Origin: a virus
Direction: 5' to 3' (one strand)
DNA: 46,223 nucleotides
Virus record (IMG/VR): IMGVR_UViG_3300008266_000098
Coordinates: 1-46,223 of that record
Positions 2,224-46,223 of the stretch are shown here, in pieces. The position numbers were made by a program, and so were the translations under genes. Below the pieces are notes generated by a model. The model saw nothing but the letters and a program-made list of their open reading frames with translations, did no database searches and was not told where the DNA came from. Position 1 is the first letter of the stretch. Each line of letters opens with the position of its first letter.

Positions 2224-5200
2224 ATGGCCGGAGAGAACCCCGAAGCCGACGTTACCGTCCCGTCCACGGGCATCATGCCCTACGCCGAGGATGCCCCGGA
2301 GATCGGTGCCGCTCCGGCCATGCCCGCTGCTCCCACCGCTGCGCCTGCGCGGACGTGGGGTGACACCTTTGGCGACCTCGGGCAAGCCGCACTGGGCGGT
2401 GCCGCCGAAGCCGTCTTCGAGACCAAGGACTTCGTGCTGGGCGAGGTGCCGCGTGAACAGCGGTCCACCATGCGTGCCCAGATCGAGGACAACACGGCCC
2501 GCCTCAAGAAGGAGGGGATGGCCAACGCCTTCGTCGCCGGGGTCTCGCAGTTCGCTGTGGGCCTCATCGGCGTCGGCAAAATCCTCAAGCCCATCCAAGC
2601 GGTCCAGAAGCTCTCCAAGGCGGGGGCCGTGGGCAAGGCGGCGGTGGAGATCGGCAAGGGTGCGGCGGTTGGCGCCATCGCGTTCGACCCCCACGAGGAG
2701 CGTCTCAGCAACATCGTGGAGGCGTTCCCCACCCTGTCCAACCCCATGACCCGGTACCTCGCGGCGGACCCCACGGACACCGCTGCGGAGGGCCGCCTCA
2801 AGAACGCCATCGAGGGCATTGGTCTGGACTTCGCCATGATCGGCCTCATCGCTGGTGGCGCCAAGGTCCTCAAGTCGCTCAAGTCGGGCGATGAGGCGGG
2901 CGTCGCGGCGGGCGTCAAGGAGATCGAGGCGGGTCAGGCCACCCTCGCGGCCAAGGAGGCGGAGGCGGCAGGGGAAGTCGTCACCCTCGTGCCCAACCAG
3001 ACGGCAGCACTCAAGGCAGACGGCCTCACCCCCCAGTCGGCACCCAAGGTCCCGGACCTCGTGGAGGTGAACGACATCGACATGCCCCGGCTGCTCACCG
3101 CCTCGCGGGACGACGCCATGGCCATCTCCACGTTCGGGTCCTACGAGGACGCCCTCAAGGCGGGCCACGTGTTCTCGAAGGAGAAGATGCCGTGGCAGAA
3201 GCTCGTGGAGGGTGAGCCCAACGCCGCCGACATGCTGCTGGGCCGCCTCGCGGAGAGCCGCAAGTTGGAACTGGACGCCATCAAGGGCGGAGACGTTCTG
3301 TCTGACGCCACGGTGGACCGCTCCGTCCGCGCCATGACCCGCGCCTTCAACGTGGACCCTGCGGCTGTCACCGGGGAGATCATCCGGGCAGGCGAGGCGG
3401 CGAGCACCATGGTCGCCAACATGGAGGCCGCCTTCGGGGTCGCCTCCCGCGCGTCCTCGGACCTGTGGACCATGGCCGCCCGTATCGACGCTGGGGACTT
3501 CACGGCGTGGGGCGGGTCGAAGGACGCGGCGGAGCAGGCGCTCAAGGACATGGCCTCCGTGACCGCCACCTATCTGGGGAACGCCAAGTCCATCCTGTCC
3601 AACTCGGCGCGGGCCATGCGGCGTGCCCGGAGCGACTTCGTCCTCAAGCCGGAGGACCTCGCGCGGTACAACGAGATCGACCCCGCGCAGTTGGCCAAGC
3701 TGATCGTTGCGTCCGGTGGCGACCCTGCCGCTATGTCCAAGGCCCTCGGCCCCGGCATGGTGGCCCGCATCCGGGACGGCGCCCAGTTCCTCTACGTGAA
3801 CAACCTGCTCTGGGGCTGGCGGACCCACTTCGTCAACATGACCACCAACCTGTACATGGTCGGGGGTCGGCCCATGGAGCGGATCATCGGGTCCTTCGCC
3901 ACCGGGGCGGAGGCCGGGCAGCGCATCCGGGCGGAGAACTTCAAGCAGTACCACTACATGGGCGCCTCCCTGCACGATGCGTGGACGGCGGCGGTCCAGA
4001 CGTACAAGTCCGGCGACAGCGTGATGTCCCCCCACAACGCCAACGAGGCGGTGAACATGGGCGGCAGCACGGGCAAGGCCATCGCGGAGATGCCGTGGAA
4101 GGAGATGGACAGCGTGGGGAACATCCTCCACAACGCCCTCGCCTTCGGGGCCAAGGCCATCGGTCAGCCCACCCGGCTCCTCGGCACGGTGGACGAGTTG
4201 GTCAAGCAGACGGTCTACCGCTCCAAGGTCCAGAGCATGGCGTTCGTTGACGGCGCCGAGCAGGGCCTCAAGGGGCAGGACCTCACGGACTACGTCAAGA
4301 AGGCCCTGATGGACAGCTTCGATGACGAGGGCCGCGCTCTCGACACTCGGGCACTCCAAGAGGCGATGGTCTCCACGTTCCAGCAGGAGCTTCTGCCGGG
4401 GACCATCGGGCGGTCGGTCGCCAACTTCACCGCAGCCCAGCCGTGGTCACGTTTCATCCTGCCGTTCGTCCGCACCCCCACCAATGTCTTGCGTATGGGG
4501 ATCAAGATGACGCCGGGCCTCAACGTGCTCCAGACGGAGTACCGGGCGATGATTAGCGGGTCGATGGGTCCCGAGATGCAGGCGCAGGCCGTGGGGCAGA
4601 TGTCCATGGGTGCCCTGTTCATGGGGACCGCAGCCCACCTCGCCCACTCCGGGATGATGACGGGCGGCGGACCTACGGACCGGGCCGAGCGGGACCTGCT
4701 GCTCTCGACTGGGTGGCAGCCCTACTCGTTCGTCCGCACCGGCCCCAACGGCGAGAAGACGTACGTGCCCTACGGCAGGTATGACCCTATCGCCATGCCC
4801 TTCGGCATCATCGCTGACATCGTCGCGGCCCTCCACGCGGTGGACCCCGATGACGAGACGGTGGCCGACCGGGCTCAGACTGTCATGACCGGCGCTCTCG
4901 TGAGCCTCGCCAAGCAGTTCGGCAACAAGACGTACCTCATGTCCATCAACCAAGCGATGGACGCGATCATGGACCCGGACCGGAACATGGGGAAGACGGC
5001 GGGCACGATGGCCAGCAACTTCATCCCCTTCGCGTCCAACCTGCGGCAGTTCAACCAAGACCCCTACATGCGGGACGCGAGGGACTTCACCGACAAGTTC
5101 ATCGCTACCATCCCCGGCCTCTCGGAGACGATCCCTCCGAAGCGGGACGTGTGGGGCGACCCCCGGTCCACCTACAAGGGGCTGTGGGTCTCGACGCCTG

Positions 5201-11067: not shown

Positions 11068-11366
11068 GCCGTCCCCGATGAGTAGGGAGGGAGGAGGTCC
11101 CCGACTAAGCAGGGTACACCATGCGTCCCCCACCCCACGTACCACCGGATCAGCGTTTCCCCCCGTGCCACCCCGCGTTTCCCGGTACGTTCGCGCCTCG
11201 TTCACCCTGCGTACCACCTCGCGTCCCACCTAGCGACCCACCCCAGCCGCTAACCCCTTGGCGTTGCTCGCACCTCATGTCCTTACCGGAGGACATGACA
11301 CGAGGCGGACATGGGGTGGGGGCTGGGATGGTGCACCCTCACCTGTCTGATACCATCAGTGGTCCG

Positions 11367-11380: not shown

Positions 11381-11518
11381 TGCGTACTAGCAGAGGTGGG
11401 AGGGGGTCACAGTCCGCCGCGAGGCGGGACGCGAGGTGGTTCGTGGGGTGATGCTCAATGAGGATGCACGCTACCTGGTGAACGGTTGTGCACTCGACCT
11501 GGTGTTTCGGCTGGGGGC

Positions 11519-11548
11519 TTGACAGGAGGATGAACACGGGAGGATAAG
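11519..11548 (+). promoter_or_regulatory. Host-type (sigma-70-like) early promoter
   Basis: A perfect -35 box TTGACA (11519-11524) and GATAAG (11543-11548) as -10, spacing 18. The surrounding GGGGCTTGACAGG recurs exactly at the promoter before the RNA polymerase region (16849) and nearly at 14837. It would drive the early operon beginning at 11586. Confidence 0.65.
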
Positions 11549-11585
11549 GGGTCACCGGCCACGGGGGCCGCGAGGAGACCACGCC

Positions 11586-11870
11586 ATGACATTCATCAGC
11601 ATCAACGCGAAGTCCGCCGACATCCCCACGGATGCACTCTATCTCGACATGCACGAGGGTGACGTGGAGACCGGGCGCATTGTGGCGCACGCGGCGCGGG
11701 TCACCCGGTTCAACAAGGTGGCGTATCCCAGCCCCCGCCACATGGTGGGTCAGTGGGTGGTCACCATCTACGACGCGGAGATGAACGGGACCACGCTGGA
11801 GCACTCCTCTGGGCACCCGATGGCCCGTGCCCGCACCCGCCTTCGCATGGCGTCCTACGCCACGGCGTGA
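11586..11870 (+). CDS. Early hypothetical protein, 94 aa
   Basis: First gene after the early promoter, from ATG with GAGGAG upstream. Its leader keeps the words GTCACCGG and GGCC seen in the repeated RNA elements downstream but not their full structure. The protein has no recognised domain. In T7 the first early gene encodes an anti-restriction protein (Ocr), but this product is not obviously acidic DNA mimicry (it contains many Arg, His and Lys), so no function is assigned. Confidence 0.65.
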   Translation: MTFISINAKSADIPTDALYLDMHEGDVETGRIVAHAARVTRFNKVAYPSPRHMVGQWVVTIYDAEMNGTTLEHSSGHPMARARTRLRMASYATA

Positions 11871-11873
11871 CCC

Positions 11874-11950
11874 CACCTCGTGGCCCTGTCGCAAGGCAGG
11901 GTCACCGGGAGGGGCCATCCCTCGCACCACACGTTGGGAGACGTGACACC
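11874..11950 (+). ncRNA. Three-hairpin intergenic RNA element, copy 1
   Basis: Hairpin A pairs 11880-11888 with 11897-11905 (9 bp, one G-T). Hairpin B is GAGGG (11909-11913) with CCCTC (11919-11923). Hairpin C is CACGT, loop TGGGAG, ACGTG (11930-11945), which places the Shine-Dalgarno sequence in the loop, 10 bases before the ATG at 11951. Four more copies follow with compensatory changes in A and C. Confidence 0.8.
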
Positions 11951-12190
11951 ATGCTGACCACTTGGAAAATGCTGACCCTCACTGCCCAGTGCACTTGCAC
12001 CGGCCACCTCTCGCCGCGCGATGTCCTCCGCATGCTCGCCTATGGCATCCTCGCGGTACAGGCTGGGAGGGCGCGGGACGGGAACGTTCACACGTACAGG
12101 ATGCACGTGGGGGCCATGCGGGGTACGTGGCGCAGGGCTCGTGTCCGGGCCATCGGGTGCCGCGCCGTCGCCAACGCTCTGGGGGTCTGA
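11951..12190 (+). CDS. Early hypothetical protein, 79 aa
   Basis: Starts directly after RNA element copy 1. Basic, with a Cys pair near the N-terminus (QCTCTGHLS) and Arg-rich C-terminal half (RGTWRRARVRAIG). It ends GGGGGTCTGA and is followed 4 bases later by the next ATG, so the two are probably translated together. No family recognised. Confidence 0.6.
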   Translation: MLTTWKMLTLTAQCTCTGHLSPRDVLRMLAYGILAVQAGRARDGNVHTYRMHVGAMRGTWRRARVRAIGCRAVANALGV

Positions 12191-12194
12191 CACC

Positions 12195-12524
12195 ATGGCA
12201 AAGCAGGTTGTGCTCTACACGGTGCTCCACTCCGGTTCCGGTCACCCCACGTGTGCAAAGGGTCCGGTCCGCGCCGTCCCTCACATGGGAGCCGGGAGGG
12301 CGTGCCACTGGTTCACGGATCACGGGATGGTCGAACCGGACTATGCCGCAGTCCGCGAGTGTCTGCCCCACTACTGGCGTAAGGCGTGGGACCGTAGGGG
12401 AGCCGTTTGGTTCACGGACGAGCCCGGAGCGGACCCCACGAAGCCGGCCACGTGCACCCTCTACAGCACGCGGGGCAAGTACCTCACGACCCTGTATCTA
12501 CAGCCCTACAAGTTCCCTGCTTGA
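12195..12524 (+). CDS. Early hypothetical protein, 109 aa
   Basis: ATG start in the context TCTGACACCATG, 4 bases after the previous stop. Rich in His, Trp and Tyr (ACHWFTDHGM, PHYWRKAWDRRGAVWF), suggesting a small folded domain. It has three Cys but no clear metal-site spacing. No family recognised. RNA element copy 2 follows. Confidence 0.6.
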   Translation: MAKQVVLYTVLHSGSGHPTCAKGPVRAVPHMGAGRACHWFTDHGMVEPDYAAVRECLPHYWRKAWDRRGAVWFTDEPGADPTKPATCTLYSTRGKYLTTLYLQPYKFPA

Positions 12525-12527
12525 CGC

Positions 12528-12605
12528 TACCTCATGCCGGGCACATAGTCCGGCATCTGGGAGGGCCAACCGGCACTTCGCAACCACGTTGGGAGACGTG
12601 ACACC
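12528..12605 (+). ncRNA. Three-hairpin intergenic RNA element, copy 2
   Basis: Hairpin A is a perfect 7-bp stem, ATGCCGG (12534-12540) with CCGGCAT (12550-12556), fully different in sequence from copy 1. Hairpin B is degenerate here (GGGAGGGCCAACCGG). Hairpin C, CACGT-TGGGAG-ACGTG (12585-12600), is intact and 5 bases before the ATG at 12606. Confidence 0.75.
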
Positions 12606-12701
12606 ATGCAACCGCTCACCATCACCATCACCACGGCCACCGGGAAGCACATCACCCTGTCGGCTGACGCCACCCGCAACCGCCTCGCACTGGGGGTCTG
12701 A
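12606..12701 (+). CDS. Very small early ORF, 31 aa
   Basis: ATG directly after RNA element copy 2; product begins MQPLTITITTATGKHITLSA. It ends in the same GGGGGTCTGA as the gene at 11951 and is followed by CATCATG of the next gene. It could be a real mini-protein, a coupling peptide for the gene at 12706, or the remnant of a deleted gene whose C-terminus (ALGV) matches that of 11951-12190. Confidence 0.5.
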   Translation: MQPLTITITTATGKHITLSADATRNRLALGV

Positions 12702-12705
12702 CATC

Positions 12706-12963
12706 ATGAGCACCCGCAACCCGGACATCGGCTGGACAGCACTAGACCCCGCAAAGGCTGACTACGGTGCAGTAGAGGGCGCGTATGTCAACGGCATCAC
12801 CCTGCTCGCAATGAACAGCGGCAAGACCGTTTGCGTGGTGGGGCACTGCTCGTGCACCACAAAGGCGGATGCTGAGAGAATTGCCCGCAAGAGCAGCAGC
12901 CACGAGGCTGACCGCTTTGTATCACGCAAGCGCCTTATGTCATGGTTCGTGCAGCCTGCTTGA
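12706..12963 (+). CDS. Early hypothetical protein, 85 aa
   Basis: ATG 4 bases after the previous stop, so likely translationally coupled to the 31-codon ORF. Contains TVCVVGHCSCTTKADAERIA, with two nearby Cys, then a basic helix (SRKRLMSWF). No family recognised. RNA element copy 3 follows the stop. Confidence 0.6.
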   Translation: MSTRNPDIGWTALDPAKADYGAVEGAYVNGITLLAMNSGKTVCVVGHCSCTTKADAERIARKSSSHEADRFVSRKRLMSWFVQPA

Positions 12964-12966
12964 CGC

Positions 12967-13037
12967 CACCTCATGTCCCGGCCTAGTGTCGGGGCATCGG
13001 GAGGGGCCAACCCTCGCATCGTGTTGGGAGACACATC
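12967..13037 (+). ncRNA. Three-hairpin intergenic RNA element, copy 3
   Basis: Hairpin A: 12973-12980 pairs with 12990-12997 (8 bp including one T-G). Hairpin B: GAGGG (13001-13005) with CCCTC (13011-13015). Hairpin C: GTGT, loop TGGGAG, ACAC (13021-13034). The C stem differs from the CACGT/ACGTG form on both sides, so pairing is kept while sequence is not. ATG follows at 13038. Confidence 0.8.
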
Positions 13038-13535
13038 ATGACCAAATCCAAGCGCATCACTGCCGTGCAATTCCCGGATGGTGAGACCCACACGAATGAC
13101 CGGGGGCTGTGGGATGACAGCATCGCCAAGGGGCGTTGCGTGGCACTCTATGGGAAAGACGGGGTGGCCGCACTGCGGGCCTATCGTGGCGACAAGCTGC
13201 GGGAGTTCATCAAGCCTAAGACCACCATCAAGGCCGTTGATTGCCACAGGTCCGCAAGCGGCGGGGTGGTGCACTTCCGGCTCTTTGTCGCGGCACTCAG
13301 TGAGACGGGCCAGCCCTACGTCCGGGACATCACACGGCAGGTGGCGGAGTTCGTCGGCTTTAAGGTGAGCCCCAAGACGGACGGCATCGTCATGAGCGGC
13401 TACGGCTACAGCAAGTCGTTCCAAATCGGCTACAGCCTCGGCCTCGCCCTGTGGCCTAACGGCACGCCCGAACCTCACGGCACACGCAATGGCGAGCCTG
13501 ATAGCTGCGGTGGGTATGCCATCAGCATCGGCTAG
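13038..13535 (+). CDS. Early hypothetical protein, 165 aa
   Basis: The largest gene of the early block, ATG after RNA element copy 3. Mixed alpha/beta composition, with VDCHRSASGGVVHFRLFVAA and a Gly/Ser/Tyr-rich part near the C-terminus (SGYGYSKSFQIGYSLGLALW). No recognised domain. Position suggests a host-takeover or defence-evasion role, which is inference only. Confidence 0.65.
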   Translation: MTKSKRITAVQFPDGETHTNDRGLWDDSIAKGRCVALYGKDGVAALRAYRGDKLREFIKPKTTIKAVDCHRSASGGVVHFRLFVAALSETGQPYVRDITRQVAEFVGFKVSPKTDGIVMSGYGYSKSFQIGYSLGLALWPNGTPEPHGTRNGEPDSCGGYAISIG

Positions 13536-13546
13536 GGGACGCGGCG

Positions 13547-13624
13547 TCACCTCATGGCCCCGGCTCACGCTGGGGTCTATGGGGAGGGGCCAATCCCTCG
13601 CACCATGTTGGGAGACATGAAGCC
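13547..13624 (+). ncRNA. Three-hairpin intergenic RNA element, copy 4
   Basis: Hairpin A: 13556-13564 with 13569-13577 (9 bp, two G-T pairs, loop TCAC). Hairpin B: GAGGG (13584-13588) with CCCTC (13595-13599). Hairpin C: CATGT, loop TGGGAG, ACATG (13604-13619), a coupled change relative to CACGT/ACGTG. ATG at 13625. Confidence 0.8.
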
Positions 13625-13942
13625 ATGACCACACGTCGCACACTGGGAAGCCTGCTCCACCCTGCGGACCGCGCGGAGGTGCTCCAAGCCTACACCCACC
13701 GGTTCACCATGGAGCACGTCCCGTTCTGGGCCACGGTCCAGAGGGCGGACGGGACCTACTACGCGCCACACTACCGCACGGATGCGGACTGGCTGTCATG
13801 CACCACGTTCGCCGTCCGGCAGGATGGCCGGTTGCATCAGGGCCGGACCGGGGCAGAGGACTTCGCGTGTCGGCCCCTTCACGTCGATTACTTCCCACTG
13901 GGCAAGTCACTGCCGGCACCGTACCGCAAGGGGCAGGGCTGA
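13625..13942 (+). CDS. Early hypothetical protein, 105 aa
   Basis: ATG after RNA element copy 4. The sequence is rich in aromatic residues and His (TMEHVPFWATVQRADGTYYA, LHVDYFPLGKSL) and has a beta-hairpin-like middle. No family recognised. RNA element copy 5 begins 3 bases after its stop. Confidence 0.6.
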   Translation: MTTRRTLGSLLHPADRAEVLQAYTHRFTMEHVPFWATVQRADGTYYAPHYRTDADWLSCTTFAVRQDGRLHQGRTGAEDFACRPLHVDYFPLGKSLPAPYRKGQG

Positions 13943-13944
13943 CC

Positions 13945-14025
13945 TCACCTCGTGTCCCGGTCGCATTGCGGCTGGGCCACCGGGAGGGGCCATCCCTCGC
14001 TTCACACGTTGGGAGACGTGACACC
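13945..14025 (+). ncRNA. Three-hairpin intergenic RNA element, copy 5
   Basis: Hairpin A is the longest: 13952-13964 with 13968-13980, 13 positions with one mismatch and two G-T pairs, loop ATT. Hairpin B: GAGGG (13984-13988) with CCCTC (13994-13998). Hairpin C: CACGT-TGGGAG-ACGTG (14005-14020). ATG at 14026. Confidence 0.8.
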
Positions 14026-14232
14026 ATGACCATCAAGCTAGGCATCACAGACAACGCCGTGGCCCCGCCCAAGGCCCGGTTCATCGACCTCACACCCACG
14101 TGGGTGGGGCTCGTCCCGCTCCTCGTGACCCTCATCGAGAATGGCGACGCGCAGGGCCGCAAGACGGCAATTGAGGAGTTGACCCGCATGGCCGCTGCGG
14201 CGGATCGGCTCGTGGAAAGCACCCGGTCATGA
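14026..14232 (+). CDS. Early hypothetical protein, 68 aa
   Basis: ATG after RNA element copy 5. N-terminal half moderately hydrophobic (TWVGLVPLLVTLIENG), C-terminal half an amphipathic helix (KTAIEELTRMAAAADRLVES). It overlaps the next gene by 4 bases (ATGA). No family recognised. Confidence 0.6.
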   Translation: MTIKLGITDNAVAPPKARFIDLTPTWVGLVPLLVTLIENGDAQGRKTAIEELTRMAAAADRLVESTRS

Positions 14233-15550: not shown

Positions 15551-15580
15551 GGGACACCCCGTCCCCTGTCTGGGAGACAC
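15551..15580 (+). promoter_or_regulatory. Structured leader resembling the early RNA elements
   Basis: GGGAC-ACCCC-GTCCC (15551-15565), followed by a stem TGTCT/AGACA enclosing GGG (15567-15579) just before the ATG at 15583. It repeats the words TGGGAGACAC of RNA element copy 3, but with a different pairing and without hairpin A. Possibly a diverged relative. Confidence 0.4.
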
Positions 15581-15582
15581 CT

Positions 15583-15831
15583 ATGGCAACCATCTGTAGC
15601 TACGTGGCAGAGGTCGAGTACGATGACCGCAAGCCGTTCCGCCTGTTCACGCCCACCATGATGGTCGAGAAGCTGGACACCGAGCAGGCCACCGAGCAGG
15701 CGGCGACCCTCCAAGCGTCCGTCATGGTTCGGGAGTTCATCGCGACCCACTTCCCGGAGGGCACCCCGGTACCCAAGGTGGTCCGCGTCCGTCTGGGCTC
15801 CATGGTCTTCGTTCCGGGAGGCACTCTGTGA
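15583..15831 (+). CDS. Hypothetical protein preceding the integrase, 82 aa
   Basis: ATG preceded by GGGAG. Mixed composition (FRLFTPTMMVEKLDTEQATE, VPKVVRVRLGSMVFVPGG). It overlaps the integrase start by 4 bases (GTGA), so they are co-translated. It could be an excisionase-like or control protein by position, but no winged-helix or helix-turn-helix motif is obvious. Confidence 0.6.
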   Translation: MATICSYVAEVEYDDRKPFRLFTPTMMVEKLDTEQATEQAATLQASVMVREFIATHFPEGTPVPKVVRVRLGSMVFVPGGTL

Positions 15832-16712
15832 CCCAGCGCACACTCACAGAAGAACTCCGGCACGTCTGGGACACCGACTGGTCCAAGCGGGCCTCGGGCA
15901 AGTGCCTCCTGTCACAGGCGGAGCAGGCCATCTCGTACCTCCACATCACGCGGGGGTGGACGCTCGGCGCCGAACTCCGGGCCGATCAGGTCACGCCGGA
16001 CCGCATCCGGGAGGTCACCACCCTGTGGTACGCCGAGGGCCTATCCCCAGCGACCATCACCAAGCGCCTCAACTGCCTGTCACGGCTGGGGGTCAACGTC
16101 ACCGGGTGCCGCCCGAAGAAGTCCAAGCTCGGGGGCTTGAAGTGGTGGCTGAACCCCACCTCCCAGAGCACCCTCACGCTCGGCCTCTCGGGGGGCAAGG
16201 TGCTCCCCACGCAGGGCGAGAACCGGATGATGCTGGGGTACGTGCTCTGGGCCGTGCACACCGGGCTGCGGGTCGAGGAGAGCTTGCGGCTGACGTGGGG
16301 GCACATCATCGCCCCGGTGGGAGGCTCGTGGTCGCTCACGGTGCCCGGCACCAAGACGGACGCGGCGCAGGCCACCCTCCCGCTGTCCTCGGAGGCGTGT
16401 GCGGCCCTGCGGGTCATCCCTCGCGGCCCCGGCTCCGTGTTCTACGACCCGAGGACCTGCAAGCCGCTGGCCTACGATCAACTGGAGGCGTGGTGGTCGC
16501 ACTGCCGGGCCTACATCGGGGCCACGGACATCCCCACGGCCACGCTCAAGGCCCTGCGCCGCAACGCCGCCCGGCACCTGCACATTGACCTCGGCATGCC
16601 CATCGACATGGTGCGGGACTACCTGCGGCACGAGAACGTCGAGACGACCATGGGCTACCTCAAGCTGGTCGGCGGGTATCAGGCAGAGGAGATGCGTCGA
16701 TGGGTCAAGTGA
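15828..16712 (+). CDS. int: Tyrosine recombinase / integrase
   Basis: 294 residues from GTG. N-terminal core-binding part (about 1-100, AEGLSPATITKRLNCLSRLG) and catalytic part with Arg148 (HTGLRVEESLRLTW), the beta-hairpin Lys near 176 (GTKTDAA), Lys241-x-x-Arg244 (usual His replaced by Lys), His268 and nucleophile Tyr277 (LRHENVETTMGYLK). It should catalyse site-specific integration between attP and a host attB. Integrases upstream of the RNA polymerase gene occur in some temperate or temperate-derived T7-like phages. No attP could be identified without a host sequence. No repressor was recognised. Confidence 0.9.
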   Translation: MTQRTLTEELRHVWDTDWSKRASGKCLLSQAEQAISYLHITRGWTLGAELRADQVTPDRIREVTTLWYAEGLSPATITKRLNCLSRLGVNVTGCRPKKSKLGGLKWWLNPTSQSTLTLGLSGGKVLPTQGENRMMLGYVLWAVHTGLRVEESLRLTWGHIIAPVGGSWSLTVPGTKTDAAQATLPLSSEACAALRVIPRGPGSVFYDPRTCKPLAYDQLEAWWSHCRAYIGATDIPTATLKALRRNAARHLHIDLGMPIDMVRDYLRHENVETTMGYLKLVGGYQAEEMRRWVK

Positions 16713-16843: not shown

Positions 16844-16848
16844 GGGGC

Positions 16849-16877
16849 TTGACAGGCACAGGGAGATGTGCTCTAAG
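16849..16877 (+). promoter_or_regulatory. Host-type (sigma-70-like) promoter before the RNA polymerase region
   Basis: TTGACA (16849-16854), exact 17-base spacer, TCTAAG (16872-16877). The context GGGGCTTGACAGG is identical to the early promoter at 11519, and both -10 boxes end in TAAG. It would let host polymerase transcribe the 145-aa gene and, by read-through, the phage RNA polymerase. Confidence 0.65.
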
Positions 16878-16943
16878 CCACACCCAGCGGGGAGAACCCG
16901 CCCCGGACCACCCCTCGACCATCACCCAGCAGGAGATGCCACC

Positions 16944-17472: not shown

Positions 17473-20109
17473 ATGCTGCACGACCCCAACCTGCCGTTCG
17501 ACGCGGAGACCGCCCTTCCGCTGATCGCCAACCTCGGCCTCGTGAGCCCGGAAGACCACCCTCTGTGGCCGCTGCAAGTCCGGCTGGAGGGTCTCATGCG
17601 GGAGCAGGGGGTCAAGCGCATGGCGGACATCGAGACCGAGGCCAGAGGCAAGCGGTCGATGACCCGCCTCGCCCCGGTGCGGCACCTCGTGACCGACTGG
17701 ATCACCCCGGTCGCTGACACGTTCAAGGACTGGCGCTCCGCGTGCCGCAGGCAGACCGGCCCCATGCCAGTCGCCTACGCCCACCTCAAGGAGATCGACG
17801 CCGACCTCGCCGCCTTCATCGCGGTGCGGGAGGTCCTCGACAGCGTGACCATCGAGAGGACCAGCGCGGGGTCCATGGCCTGCTCCATCGGGCGCAAGGT
17901 CGAGTACGAGTTGAAGCTCCGCGCCATGGAGAAGGCGAACCCCAAGCTCATGCGGGCCATCGCGCGGGATCAGGAGCGGGAGAAGTCCACCGCCGAGCAC
18001 CGGCTCCGGGCCAACATCAACCGCTCGCACTACCTCCTCGCCACCGGGCAGGTGGACATGGAGTGGGCCGCGTGGTCCGATGAGGTGCACTTCCGGGTGG
18101 GCGTGGCCCTGCTCGACGCCATCATCCGGGCGACCGCGTGGTTCACACTGGGCGACAACCCCAGCCACGTGTACCGCAAGGGCAAGGCATCGACCCCGGC
18201 CCTCACGCTCCTCCCCAAGCGGGGCCTCATCGACTTCATCGCCAAGGGCATCGACCGGCAGGGCCTCCTGTCCCCAGTCTTCATGCCCACCGTCCTCCCG
18301 CCCCAGCGCTGGGTGGGGACGCGGCGTGGCGGCTACTGGACCCACCAAGTGAACACGCCCCGGCTCATCCGGTTCAAGGCGTCGCAGGCGGACCAGAAGG
18401 AGGCTGCGGCGGACGAGTACGAGGCCCTCTCGATGCCCCTCGTCTACGAGGCGCTCCACGTGGTGCAGGAGGTGCCGTGGAAGGTGAACGCGGAGGTGCT
18501 CGCCGTGGCCGAGGCCCTGTGGCTGGCGGACACCGGGACTGCCGGCCTGCCTTACCAAGGGGAAATCCCGATGCCTGTGGGGTCGGAGGACCTCGAAGGG
18601 AAGGCGTTGAAGCAGCACAAGAAGGCGATGGCGCGGGTCTACAAGAAGCGGGTCAAGCAGGTGTCCCTCGTGGCCGCCGTGGACCGGACCCTCTCCACCG
18701 CCATCGAGTACGCGGAGCACGGCCACCCGTTCTACTTCCCCCACATGCTCGACTTCCGGGGCCGCATGTACCCCATCCCGACCGGCCTCCAGCCGCAGGG
18801 TGACGACCTCGCGCGGGGCCTCCTGACCTTCGCGGAGCCGTTCCCGGTGACCACGGAGAACCAAGGGGACCTGTGGCTGGCGATCCACCTCGCGTCCGTC
18901 TGGGGGAACGACAAGTGGGACTTCACCCGCCGCATCCAATGGGTGTGGGACAACGAGGCGATGTTCCGGGAGATCGCCGCCGACCCGACCGGGGACCTCC
19001 GCTGGCAGCAGTCGGACAAGCCGTTCCAAGCGCTGGCGGCCTGCCTTGAGTGGGTCCGGTGGCTGGACGAGGGGGAGGGCATGCTGTCCTGCCTGCCGGT
19101 GAGCGTTGACGGTACGTGCAACGGCATCCAGCACCTCTCCGCCATGACCCGCGACAAGGTGGCTGGGCAGTACGTCAACCTCGTGCCCGGCGCCGAGCCG
19201 CAGGACATCTACCAGTTCGTGGCGACCCACCTGCAATCGGTCCTTGAGCGGATCGAGGCGGGTGGCGGGGAGGAGGGCGAGAAGGCGACGTACTGGCTGG
19301 ACCTCTGCCAGCGCAAGCTCCCCCGGTCCCTCACCAAGCGACAGGTCATGGTGCTCCCCTACGGCGGCACGATGGACAGCTTCCTCACCTACGTGCGGGA
19401 GTGGCTGGAGGAGTACCACCCCGAGGAACTGGAGGAGGAGGACGACGCGGACGAGGAGGGGTACCTCGTGCGGGGCAGGCGCATCGGCTTCCTCGCGAAG
19501 CACATGTGGAGCCTCGTGGGGGAAAAGGTCCCCGGCGCGGTGAAGGTCATGAAGTGGCTCCGGGACTGCGCCGCGTGTGCCGCCCGAGGCGACCAGCCCA
19601 TCTACTGGGTGACCCCCACCGGCTTCGTGGTCCGGCACTTCTACGGCAAGGAGGCAGGGAAGCAACTCAAGACCAAGCTCGACGGTCGGACCGTGCAGAT
19701 CAAGGTCTCCTCGACCACCAAGGACCTCGACCGGTACGCCCAGTTGAAGGGCATCGCGCCCAACTTTGTGCACTCCCTCGACGCCGACGCCCTCCGCAAG
19801 TGCATCCTCCTGTGCCGCGACCGTGGGGTCACCGCGTTCACCGCCATCCACGACGCCTACGGGACCCACGCGGGGAACATGGGCACCCTCTCGCTGGCCT
19901 TGCGTGAGGCGTTCGTGGAACTCCACAAGACGGACGTGCTGGGCGACTTCCGACAAGCCTGTGCCAGCGTCATGATCGGCCTGCTGGTGGCGGAGGGGAT
20001 GGACCCCGGCGACGCGATGCAGAAGGCGGACGAGGAGTTGCCCCAGCCCCTCGACATGGGGGACCTCGACATCGAGGGCGTGCTCTCCTCGGACTACTTC
20101 TTCGCGTAG
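17473..20109 (+). CDS. Single-subunit DNA-dependent RNA polymerase (T7 gp1-like)
   Basis: 878 residues (T7: 883). Transcribes the middle and late phage genes from its own promoters. Visible catalytic motifs: DFRGRMYP at 427-434, then PQGDDLARGLL; Asp546 in SVDGTCNGIQHLSAM (T7 Asp537); Arg618, Lys622, Arg623 and Tyr630 in PRSLTKRQVMVLPYGG (T7 Arg627, Lys631, Arg632, Tyr639); His793-Asp794 in FTAIHDAYGTH (T7 Asp812); and the C-terminal foot SDYFFA (T7 SDFAFA). The two TCTAATA...CCATATG sites in the window are its likely promoters. ATG 17473 is preceded by GGGAG about 10 bases upstream. Confidence 0.97.
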   Translation: MLHDPNLPFDAETALPLIANLGLVSPEDHPLWPLQVRLEGLMREQGVKRMADIETEARGKRSMTRLAPVRHLVTDWITPVADTFKDWRSACRRQTGPMPVAYAHLKEIDADLAAFIAVREVLDSVTIERTSAGSMACSIGRKVEYELKLRAMEKANPKLMRAIARDQEREKSTAEHRLRANINRSHYLLATGQVDMEWAAWSDEVHFRVGVALLDAIIRATAWFTLGDNPSHVYRKGKASTPALTLLPKRGLIDFIAKGIDRQGLLSPVFMPTVLPPQRWVGTRRGGYWTHQVNTPRLIRFKASQADQKEAAADEYEALSMPLVYEALHVVQEVPWKVNAEVLAVAEALWLADTGTAGLPYQGEIPMPVGSEDLEGKALKQHKKAMARVYKKRVKQVSLVAAVDRTLSTAIEYAEHGHPFYFPHMLDFRGRMYPIPTGLQPQGDDLARGLLTFAEPFPVTTENQGDLWLAIHLASVWGNDKWDFTRRIQWVWDNEAMFREIAADPTGDLRWQQSDKPFQALAACLEWVRWLDEGEGMLSCLPVSVDGTCNGIQHLSAMTRDKVAGQYVNLVPGAEPQDIYQFVATHLQSVLERIEAGGGEEGEKATYWLDLCQRKLPRSLTKRQVMVLPYGGTMDSFLTYVREWLEEYHPEELEEEDDADEEGYLVRGRRIGFLAKHMWSLVGEKVPGAVKVMKWLRDCAACAARGDQPIYWVTPTGFVVRHFYGKEAGKQLKTKLDGRTVQIKVSSTTKDLDRYAQLKGIAPNFVHSLDADALRKCILLCRDRGVTAFTAIHDAYGTHAGNMGTLSLALREAFVELHKTDVLGDFRQACASVMIGLLVAEGMDPGDAMQKADEELPQPLDMGDLDIEGVLSSDYFFA

Positions 20110-45218: not shown

Positions 45219-46223
45219 ATGGCGCGTATCCAAGTTGCCGACATGGCCCCGGACCAGCTTCTCCGCCCGGTGGCCGCCCCCACGGACAGTTTCGTCAAGC
45301 CTCCCGCACTGGAGGACCTCGGGCAGAGCAACCTCATGGACCTCGCCAAGGGGCTCAAGCAGTTCGACGGGTCGCTCAACCGGTTCCTTGAGGACCGCCA
45401 GAAGACGGCGGACGAGGAGGCGGCTGTCCTCGCGCAGGCGGACTTCCACAAGAACAACGGCAAGGGCTTCTCTGCCGCCGTGGCCGAGGGTCTCATCCCC
45501 GCCCAGATGTCGCAGGCGTACGTCAACACGTACAAGCGCATGGAGGGTGACGTTGGCGGCGGCATCGTGGAGCAGAAGTTCTACGACGCCTACCAGAAGT
45601 GGCCCGGCAAGAACGACGACGACCCGGCTGCGTTCCAAGGGTTCCTCCAGACCTTCCTCCGGGACAACATCGGGACGCAGGACCCCAAGGTGCTGGCGGG
45701 CCTCCTGCCCCGTCTCCAAGCCCTCGGGCGTGAGGCGGTCAACCGGCACATCGCGGACCGGGACAAGGCGACCCGCGCTGCGTCCGAGGCGGCGTTCGGG
45801 GCCAAGCAGAACCAGACCCTCGAAGGTGCCCGGAAGAAGGCCATCGCGGAGGGCAAGTCGTTCGACGTGGAGGGGGCCGCTACAGCACTCGAAGCGATCC
45901 GCGCCGAGCGTATGGCCGCAGGTGAGAACCAAGCGGTGGCCGACAAGTCCCTAATCGACGGGGTCTCCGCGATGGCCATTGAGCACGCCGGCACGGTCGG
46001 CCCCGCGATCCTCGGCATGCTGGACCGAAAGGTGCCCGGCAAGGACTACACCTTCGCGGACACGCCCTACGGCAAGGACGTGAAGATGAAGACCATCGAC
46101 GCCCTCGACACGATCAACCGGAAGCGCGTCGCCGGGGACCACACCGCAGAGGTGGAGCGTCGCCGGGTGGCCAAGGAGGCGAACACTCGGGACGCCATCC
46201 GCTTCATGCTGGAGAACCCCGGC
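45219..46223 (+). CDS. Internal virion protein (gp15-like), N-terminal part; continues at base 1
   Basis: ATG 45219 with only weak GAGG upstream. The frame is open to the window end and continues in phase at base 1 to the stop at 2206-2208. The N-terminal ~50 residues (RIQVADMAPDQLLRPVAAPT, then DSFVKPPALEDLG) lead into charged helices (NRFLEDRQKTADEEAAVLAQ), as in podophage core proteins. The lysozyme-like domain is in the downstream part, described at 1-2208. Confidence 0.85.
   Translation, partial: MARIQVADMAPDQLLRPVAAPTDSFVKPPALEDLGQSNLMDLAKGLKQFDGSLNRFLEDRQKTADEEAAVLAQADFHKNNGKGFSAAVAEGLIPAQMSQAYVNTYKRMEGDVGGGIVEQKFYDAYQKWPGKNDDDPAAFQGFLQTFLRDNIGTQDPKVLAGLLPRLQALGREAVNRHIADRDKATRAASEAAFGAKQNQTLEGARKKAIAEGKSFDVEGAATALEAIRAERMAAGENQAVADKSLIDGVSAMAIEHAGTVGPAILGMLDRKVPGKDYTFADTPYGKDVKMKTIDALDTINRKRVAGDHTAEVERRRVAKEANTRDAIRFMLENPG
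46110..46223. repeat. Terminal overlap of a circular assembly, right copy
   Basis: Identical to bases 1-114. The codon phase at 46110 equals that at base 1, which confirms that the two ends join within one gene. Confidence 0.95.

Follow-up and report, generated by a model that had tools for sequence, protein, structure and literature searches.

The early region of a T7-like phage contains five intercistronic copies of an RNA module, located at positions 11868–14028 of the window, that is, the whole virus record of 46,223 bases analyzed here. A sequence-only reading had reported five such copies; our analysis confirms them, with starts within 2–3 bases of those given before. The stems change in pairs from copy to copy, the structure belongs to the + strand, and the layout recurs with different letters in related phages. 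We propose, with a probability of roughly 55%, that the module combines an R-site-like processing hairpin (extended hairpin A) with a hairpin that displays the Shine–Dalgarno sequence (SD; hairpin C), and that it acts in cis at early-gene junctions.

The ends of the window are identical over 114 bases (1–114 and 46110–46223). The contig is probably a complete genome of ~46.1 kb, either circularly assembled or terminally redundant. The T7-type RNA polymerase gene at 17473–20109 indicates that the contig is T7-like and that the elements belong to its early region. The window also encodes DNA polymerase, primase-helicase, head-tail adaptor, tail, and terminase genes, and a tyrosine integrase gene at 15828–16712. 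All five elements are positioned upstream of the polymerase gene, between small genes. The earlier reading described the genes that they separate as having no known family; these genes have no Pfam match above the cut-off and match at most two PHROGs, of unknown function. The closest relatives of the polymerase are 49–51% identical to it. The host is likely alphaproteobacterial, since kin prophages are mostly found in Hyphomicrobiales genomes. In addition, a start context (CTGGGGGTCTGACAYCATG) is repeated at 12178–12198 and 12690–12710, where a small gene ends just before the next one starts, and GGGGGCTTGACAGG is repeated at 11515–11555 and 16844–16880, where both copies are probably −35 regions of host-type promoters; the spacer of the 16844–16880 copy holds the inverted repeat GCACA/TGTGC around GGGAGA. 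The features of the window are as follows.

11868–11953, + strand: copy 1; stop TGA 11868–11870, CCTC at 11876, ATG at 11951; hairpin A, core 11880–11905, extended A 11868 to about 11917; hairpin B, GAGGG 11909–11913 / CCCTC 11919–11923; hairpin C, CACGT 11930–11934, loop TGGGAG 11935–11940, ACGTG 11941–11945.
12522–12608, + strand: copy 2; stop TGA 12522–12524, CCTC at 12530, ATG at 12606; A core 12534–12556; B refolded with a bulge, 12561–12579; C stem 12585–12589/12596–12600 around a TGGGAG loop.
12961–13040, + strand: copy 3; stop TGA 12961–12963, CCTC at 12969, ATG at 13038; A core 12973–12997; B 13001–13005/13011–13015; C, GTGT 13021–13024, loop 13025–13030, ACAC 13031–13034.
13533–13627, + strand: copy 4; stop TAG 13533–13535, 14 nt before CCTC at 13550, ATG at 13625; A core 13554–13580; B 13584–13588/13595–13599; C, CATGT 13604–13608, loop 13609–13614, ACATG 13615–13619.
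13940–14028, + strand: copy 5; stop TGA 13940–13942, CCTC at 13948, ATG at 14026; A core 13952–13980; B 13984–13988/13994–13998; C, CACGT 14005–14009, loop 14010–14015, ACGTG 14016–14020.
11271–11312, + strand: an A-like hairpin (ACCTCATGTCC..GGACAT..CGAGG) standing alone in the long leader of the first early gene (z −3.2, p 0.005), with neither B nor C beside it.
15566–15585, + strand: a possible sixth C-like hairpin, TGTC[TGGGA]GACA, with ATG at 15583; it follows an intrinsic-terminator-like hairpin and is not part of the lowest-energy fold.
17473–20109, + strand: phage RNA polymerase gene (phrog_414, E 1e-211), 3.4 kb downstream of the elements.

The span from CCTC to ATG is 72–81 bases over the five copies. 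A covariance model built from them recovers all five with E 1.7e-11 or better, as it must by construction, and its search of the window returns nothing else strong.

We measured covariation with a pair counter, using shuffles and slides of the partner column, on an alignment of the five copies (A3) that was set by hand with the structure in view and so leans towards it. Over hairpins A (11 pairs) and C (5 pairs), 96.2% of the cells hold standard pairs, with two-sided changes in six pairs. None of 500 shuffles reaches the covariation score of 0.487; their mean is 0.232. When the partner is shifted by 1–3 columns, pairing falls to 27–47%. The natural 3′ arms of A rank first among all 120 arm permutations. 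In folding, hairpin A beats dinucleotide shuffles in all five copies (p 0.001–0.012; Fisher 8.5e-9). Hairpin C is weak thermodynamically (Fisher 0.02; helix probability 0.03–0.79 in the window copies, in 110-nt context), yet it covaries: its stems are CACGT/ACGTG in three copies, GTGT/ACAC, where the fifth pair is a C–A mismatch, and CATGT/ACATG. The cells of hairpin A include 9 G·U and 0 A·C, indicating an RNA of the + strand, as a DNA palindrome would not give that asymmetry. Selection on RNA structure, which had been argued from the paired changes, is supported by the changes in A and C, the arm permutations, and the G·U signature. Hairpin B as first drawn stands in part: its stem is invariant in four copies, but in copy 2 it breaks and refolds with a bulge. 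Since the stem is almost invariant, covariation within the window gives B no support.

Hairpin A is paired in every copy, as described before, but is longer than described and reaches or nears the upstream stop codon. In copies 1, 2, 3, and 5 this stop is a TGA positioned exactly five bases before CCTC (TGA-N5-CCTC, four of five copies). When folded from the stop codon (copy 4, from 13541), each of the five copies gives one irregular hairpin of 16–21 pairs. The 3′ strand of this extended A includes the 5′ arm of B, so that extended A and B compete for one strand. The similarity of copies 2 and 3 reaches back into the upstream gene, over its last two codons (CCTGCTTGACGC), suggesting that the module was copied together with a stop codon.

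The early leaders of T7 offer a close comparison. In the T7 gap before gene 0.5, the TGA of gene 0.4 marks the start of a hairpin, after which come TTACTT[ATGAGG]GAGTAA and then ATG. The gap before gene 1 also opens with TGATAG, and the fold leaves those first bases unpaired. These two gaps contain the RNase III sites R0.5 and R1. The window elements resemble R0.5, R1, R1.1, and R1.3 in their early intercistronic place and irregular hairpin: they lie between cistrons of an early operon, upstream of the next SD, and each folds into an irregular hairpin of 16–21 pairs, comparable to the ~20 bp with internal loops of the T7-type sites. They resemble the gene 0.5 leader in that a hairpin begins at the upstream stop (TGATAG) and the SD lies in the loop of a six-pair hairpin. 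The window modules differ in having the extra hairpin B and in repeating the module and its SD loop as a unit. The five aligned copies lack the core sequence seen in the T7 leaders (AAGGTCNYT...AGTGGCC), although RNase III does not necessarily depend on it. Overall, the window modules look like a T7-type kind of junction with added parts and repetition, but, lacking that core, we do not assign them to the T7 sites. T7 itself has ten RNase III sites, six of them in an intergenic region that also has a promoter (PMC9135205). Because the T7 early leaders have similar geometry, RNase III-type processing appears the best supported of the roles listed by the sequence-only reading.

In the proposed mechanism, extended A, an irregular hairpin of 16–21 bp whose 5′ strand runs from or near the upstream stop, would serve as an RNase III-type processing site or as an end stabilizer. 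As the counterpart of a T7 R site, it would split the early transcript into gene-length messages; we infer cleavage by RNase III from the likeness to T7. Hairpin C holds the SD in its loop shortly before the ATG, and may stop the SD from pairing with other parts of a GC-rich message while presenting it to the 30S subunit, an effect on translation that the layout suggests. Hairpin B is small; its 5′ arm also belongs to extended A, whose base B is able to replace. Perhaps the stems differ between copies to avoid cross-pairing and recombination.

A polymerase-alignment search added the relatives L221–L227. Two of them, L224 and L227, have RNA polymerases about 50% identical to that of the window and show the same order of parts in different letters, with the SD loop kept and its stem changed.

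L227, before the genes at 627, 1010, 1271, and 2981: modules with A and B hairpins.
L227, hairpin A variants: ACCTTAG-GGCTGG..CCAGCC-ACTAGG; ACCTCATGGCCC..GGGGCCATG; ACCTTAG-GGCCCC..GGGGCC-ACTAGG.
L227, hairpin B variants: CCAGC..GCTGG or CTAGC..GCTAG.
L227, before the genes at 627, 1010, 1271, and 2243: hairpin C, a stem of 5–7 pairs around AGCTAGAGGA.
L224, hairpin C stems around [..]CTAGAGGA: TGGC/GCCA, GGC/GCC, CGTTTAG/CTAAACG, and GTCC.GAC/GTT.GGAC.

Further stems of L227 and L224 closing the loop [..]CTAGAGGA are TTGTGC/GCACAA, TGTGC/GCACA, and GTTTGG/TCAAAC; the L227 gene at 2981 lacks the SD-in-loop C upstream. When these relatives are added to the window (11 distinct rows, the relatives' modules having been chosen by eye from folded gaps before pair counting), all six pairs of C change on both sides, and none of 500 shuffles reaches the score. 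As a control, 119 sites from other phage contigs that combine a CTAGAGGA loop with a nearby start codon have stem lengths at chance: two have at least four stem pairs, compared with about 2.5 expected.

Extended hairpins of 15–24 pairs are found in copies from the window, L227, L224, L222, and L221, and most of them start at, adjoin, or contain the upstream stop codon. In L227, three of the four copies have an extended A that begins at the stop codon. Three of its pairs change on both sides, a number matched by 16 of 500 shuffles, so its covariation is suggestive only. In L221 and L222, A-type hairpins lie on or close to the stop codon without the same C, and at most of their junctions no SD in a C-type loop is seen. 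A covariance model had been proposed for finding the element in other phages; our model (R1) gives no convincing hit among 80 further T7-like loci and six prophage loci of bacterial genomes, and no R1-like element is seen in the kin prophages of Hyphomicrobiales genomes, while the layout itself turns up in the relatives. The sequence of the element is private to the window phage; its layout is not. Early and late gaps differ only weakly (p 0.09, in an automatic comparison with a crude gene caller). These last two results speak against the proposed module, as do the short and moderately predicted C helices, the absent T7 core, and the missing SD loops of L221, L222, and the L227 gene at 2981.

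Several observations were made alongside these searches. Scanning viral contigs for exact matches to the conserved core gives chance hits, except in L027 and L052: this unrelated phage or prophage contig has three stem[TGGGAG]stem hairpins directly before ATG (L027 9700–11075), with stems CCGT/ACGG, CACGT/ACGTG, and CGT/ACG. In L005, whose polymerase is 51% identical to that of the window, a terminator-like hairpin with an SD (CCCCTGCCGCAAGGCGGGGGCTTTCTGCATTCTAGGAGG) is repeated between early genes (1073–1128, 2106–2161, and 3966–3994), the third copy being the hairpin only. The RNA polymerase frame of L221 (4602–7253) holds one in-frame stop codon.

The competition between extended A and B could also be read as a two-state sensor of translation termination. 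A ribosome at the stop codon would block extended A, B and C would form, and the next gene would be translated; without a terminating ribosome, the freed 3′ arm of B would pair with the SD. The stop codon indeed belongs to the module, and the lowest-energy fold of copies 1 and 5 consists of extended A plus UCCC:GGGA over the SD. One position of L227 (C to U) changes with both its upstream and its downstream partner, but this covariation rests on four rows. In partition-function calculations, blocking the 5′ strand makes the SD more accessible in copies 1 and 5, whereas in copies 2, 3, and 4 and in L227 its accessibility decreases or hardly changes. Copy 2 lacks the 3′ arm of B. We consider this sensor unlikely. 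Blocking the stop-codon strand in the calculation gave no consistent change and did not support a termination switch as a shared property. It is quite unlikely that the junctions form a termination-coupled relay built on mutually exclusive extended A and B, in which a ribosome that completes an early gene would expose the SD of the following gene, and that the clade has conserved this switch with almost every letter exchanged.

The constancy of the loop raises the question of whether a protein reads it. CsrA and RsmE sites have GGA in a six-base loop. The loop of C likewise places GGA within six bases and is conserved although its stems change, as would be expected if an RNA-binding protein or endonuclease (CsrA- or RegB-like, or a phage-specific factor) recognized it. 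However, the loop differs among phages (TGGGAG, AGCTAGAGGA), and the SD alone accounts for its conservation. No CsrA is encoded by the phage or by any of six genomes with kin prophages, which may not include the host's, making the regulator of the host that had been suggested an unlikely reader in the case of CsrA; RegB is not encoded by the phage. We therefore hold a loop reader to be quite improbable.

The suggestion of the sequence-only reading that no described element has this layout is too strong, as the T7 early leaders, the SAS/ESAS elements, and clustered hammerheads are near matches in location and, partly, in layout. The SAS/ESAS of cluster K mycobacteriophages recur immediately ahead of start codons, carry an SD, and have inverted repeats upstream (PMC3203893). 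Together with those of Microbacterium cluster EF phages (PMC3203893, PMC7302621), they resemble the window elements as repeated SD elements a few bases before the starts of non-structural genes, with inverted repeats upstream in the gap in cluster K. The window, too, repeats at its early genes a start element that bears an SD and has an inverted repeat upstream, and SAS could close as GGG[ATAGGAG]CCC. The outer letters of SAS are fixed, whereas the window stems covary and the module includes a stop codon. The SAS 13-mer GGGATAGGAGCCC (or GGGAAAGGACCCC) is not found before start codons in the window, which has GTTGGGAGAC with varying stems instead.

The authors of the SAS/ESAS study found little support for RNA hairpins in ESAS and took the inverted repeats as DNA sites (PMC3203893). 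By analogy, the window elements might act as DNA, whether as promoters, as operators, or as linkers for recombination duplicated along with each gene, in line with the similarity of copies 2 and 3 into the last codons of the upstream gene. Against such a DNA-level role stand the 9 G·U versus 0 A·C cells, the free variation of the stems with pairing kept, and the orientation strictly towards the start codon, and we give it little probability. The phage-promoter reading was dropped, as pairing stays while the stems change. Module copying may nevertheless be how the elements spread.

Clustered hammerheads of prophages are active in vitro, one array also in vivo, and their proposed role is to divide long phage transcripts into messages of gene length (PMC3088659). 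They occupy similar junctions (near ardA, marR, and integrase) and share with our proposal the processing to gene-length messages; unlike them, the window elements have no hammerhead core. An Rfam search of the elements returns nothing credible, including no hammerhead match, and the CUGANGA...GAAA core with three stems is absent from the window. Caulobacter phage S2B (L219, MN857473.1), which is T7-like and also has the window's 14026 gene, carries hammerheads at early-gene starts (L219 643–700, 2548–2618, and 3137–3195). One is a type III hammerhead that ends at the start of gp065, whose ATG forms part of its 3′ stem strand (46.6 bits, E 2.7e-8, just under the curated cut-off of 48.5), one is a weak type I-like core before gp061 (19 bits), and one, found by eye, is a type I core with three complete stems upstream of gp059. 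Phages of this sort thus seem to put different RNA devices at similar junctions. S2B also has two 88% identical tandem-hairpin leaders (L219 1107–1212 and 1959–2065), in which the inner hairpin covaries and the SD UUGGAG lies within or beside the closing stem. In the first leader of L222, of the window's clade, positions 436–497 weakly resemble a type III hammerhead (29.4 bits, E 0.0016), with a poor stem III. That the modules are self-cleaving ribozymes of an undescribed type, at junctions that hammerheads occupy in phages of this sort such as S2B (prophage hammerhead arrays being active; PMC3088659), is very improbable, because no credible Rfam ribozyme match lies on the elements and their conserved unpaired positions are largely accounted for by the SD and B.

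The combination of a processing hairpin with an SD-display hairpin also recalls the RiboJ-type synthetic insulator, in which a cleavage element precedes a hairpin with a presumed role in exposing the ribosome-binding site (PMC6206723). That insulator is engineered and its hairpin lies upstream of the ribosome-binding site, whereas hairpin C lies around it. If the SD-display hairpins work as proposed, they would be natural insulated start sites. The shape of the module appears to be what matters, probably in the cutting and translation of the early transcript. This suggests that T7-like early junctions share a stop-anchored hairpin followed by an SD in a loop, with the shape kept rather than the sequence; the T7 gene 0.5 leader would be a possible classical case of this layout, and the layout would provide a computable signature for processing sites in uncultured phages.
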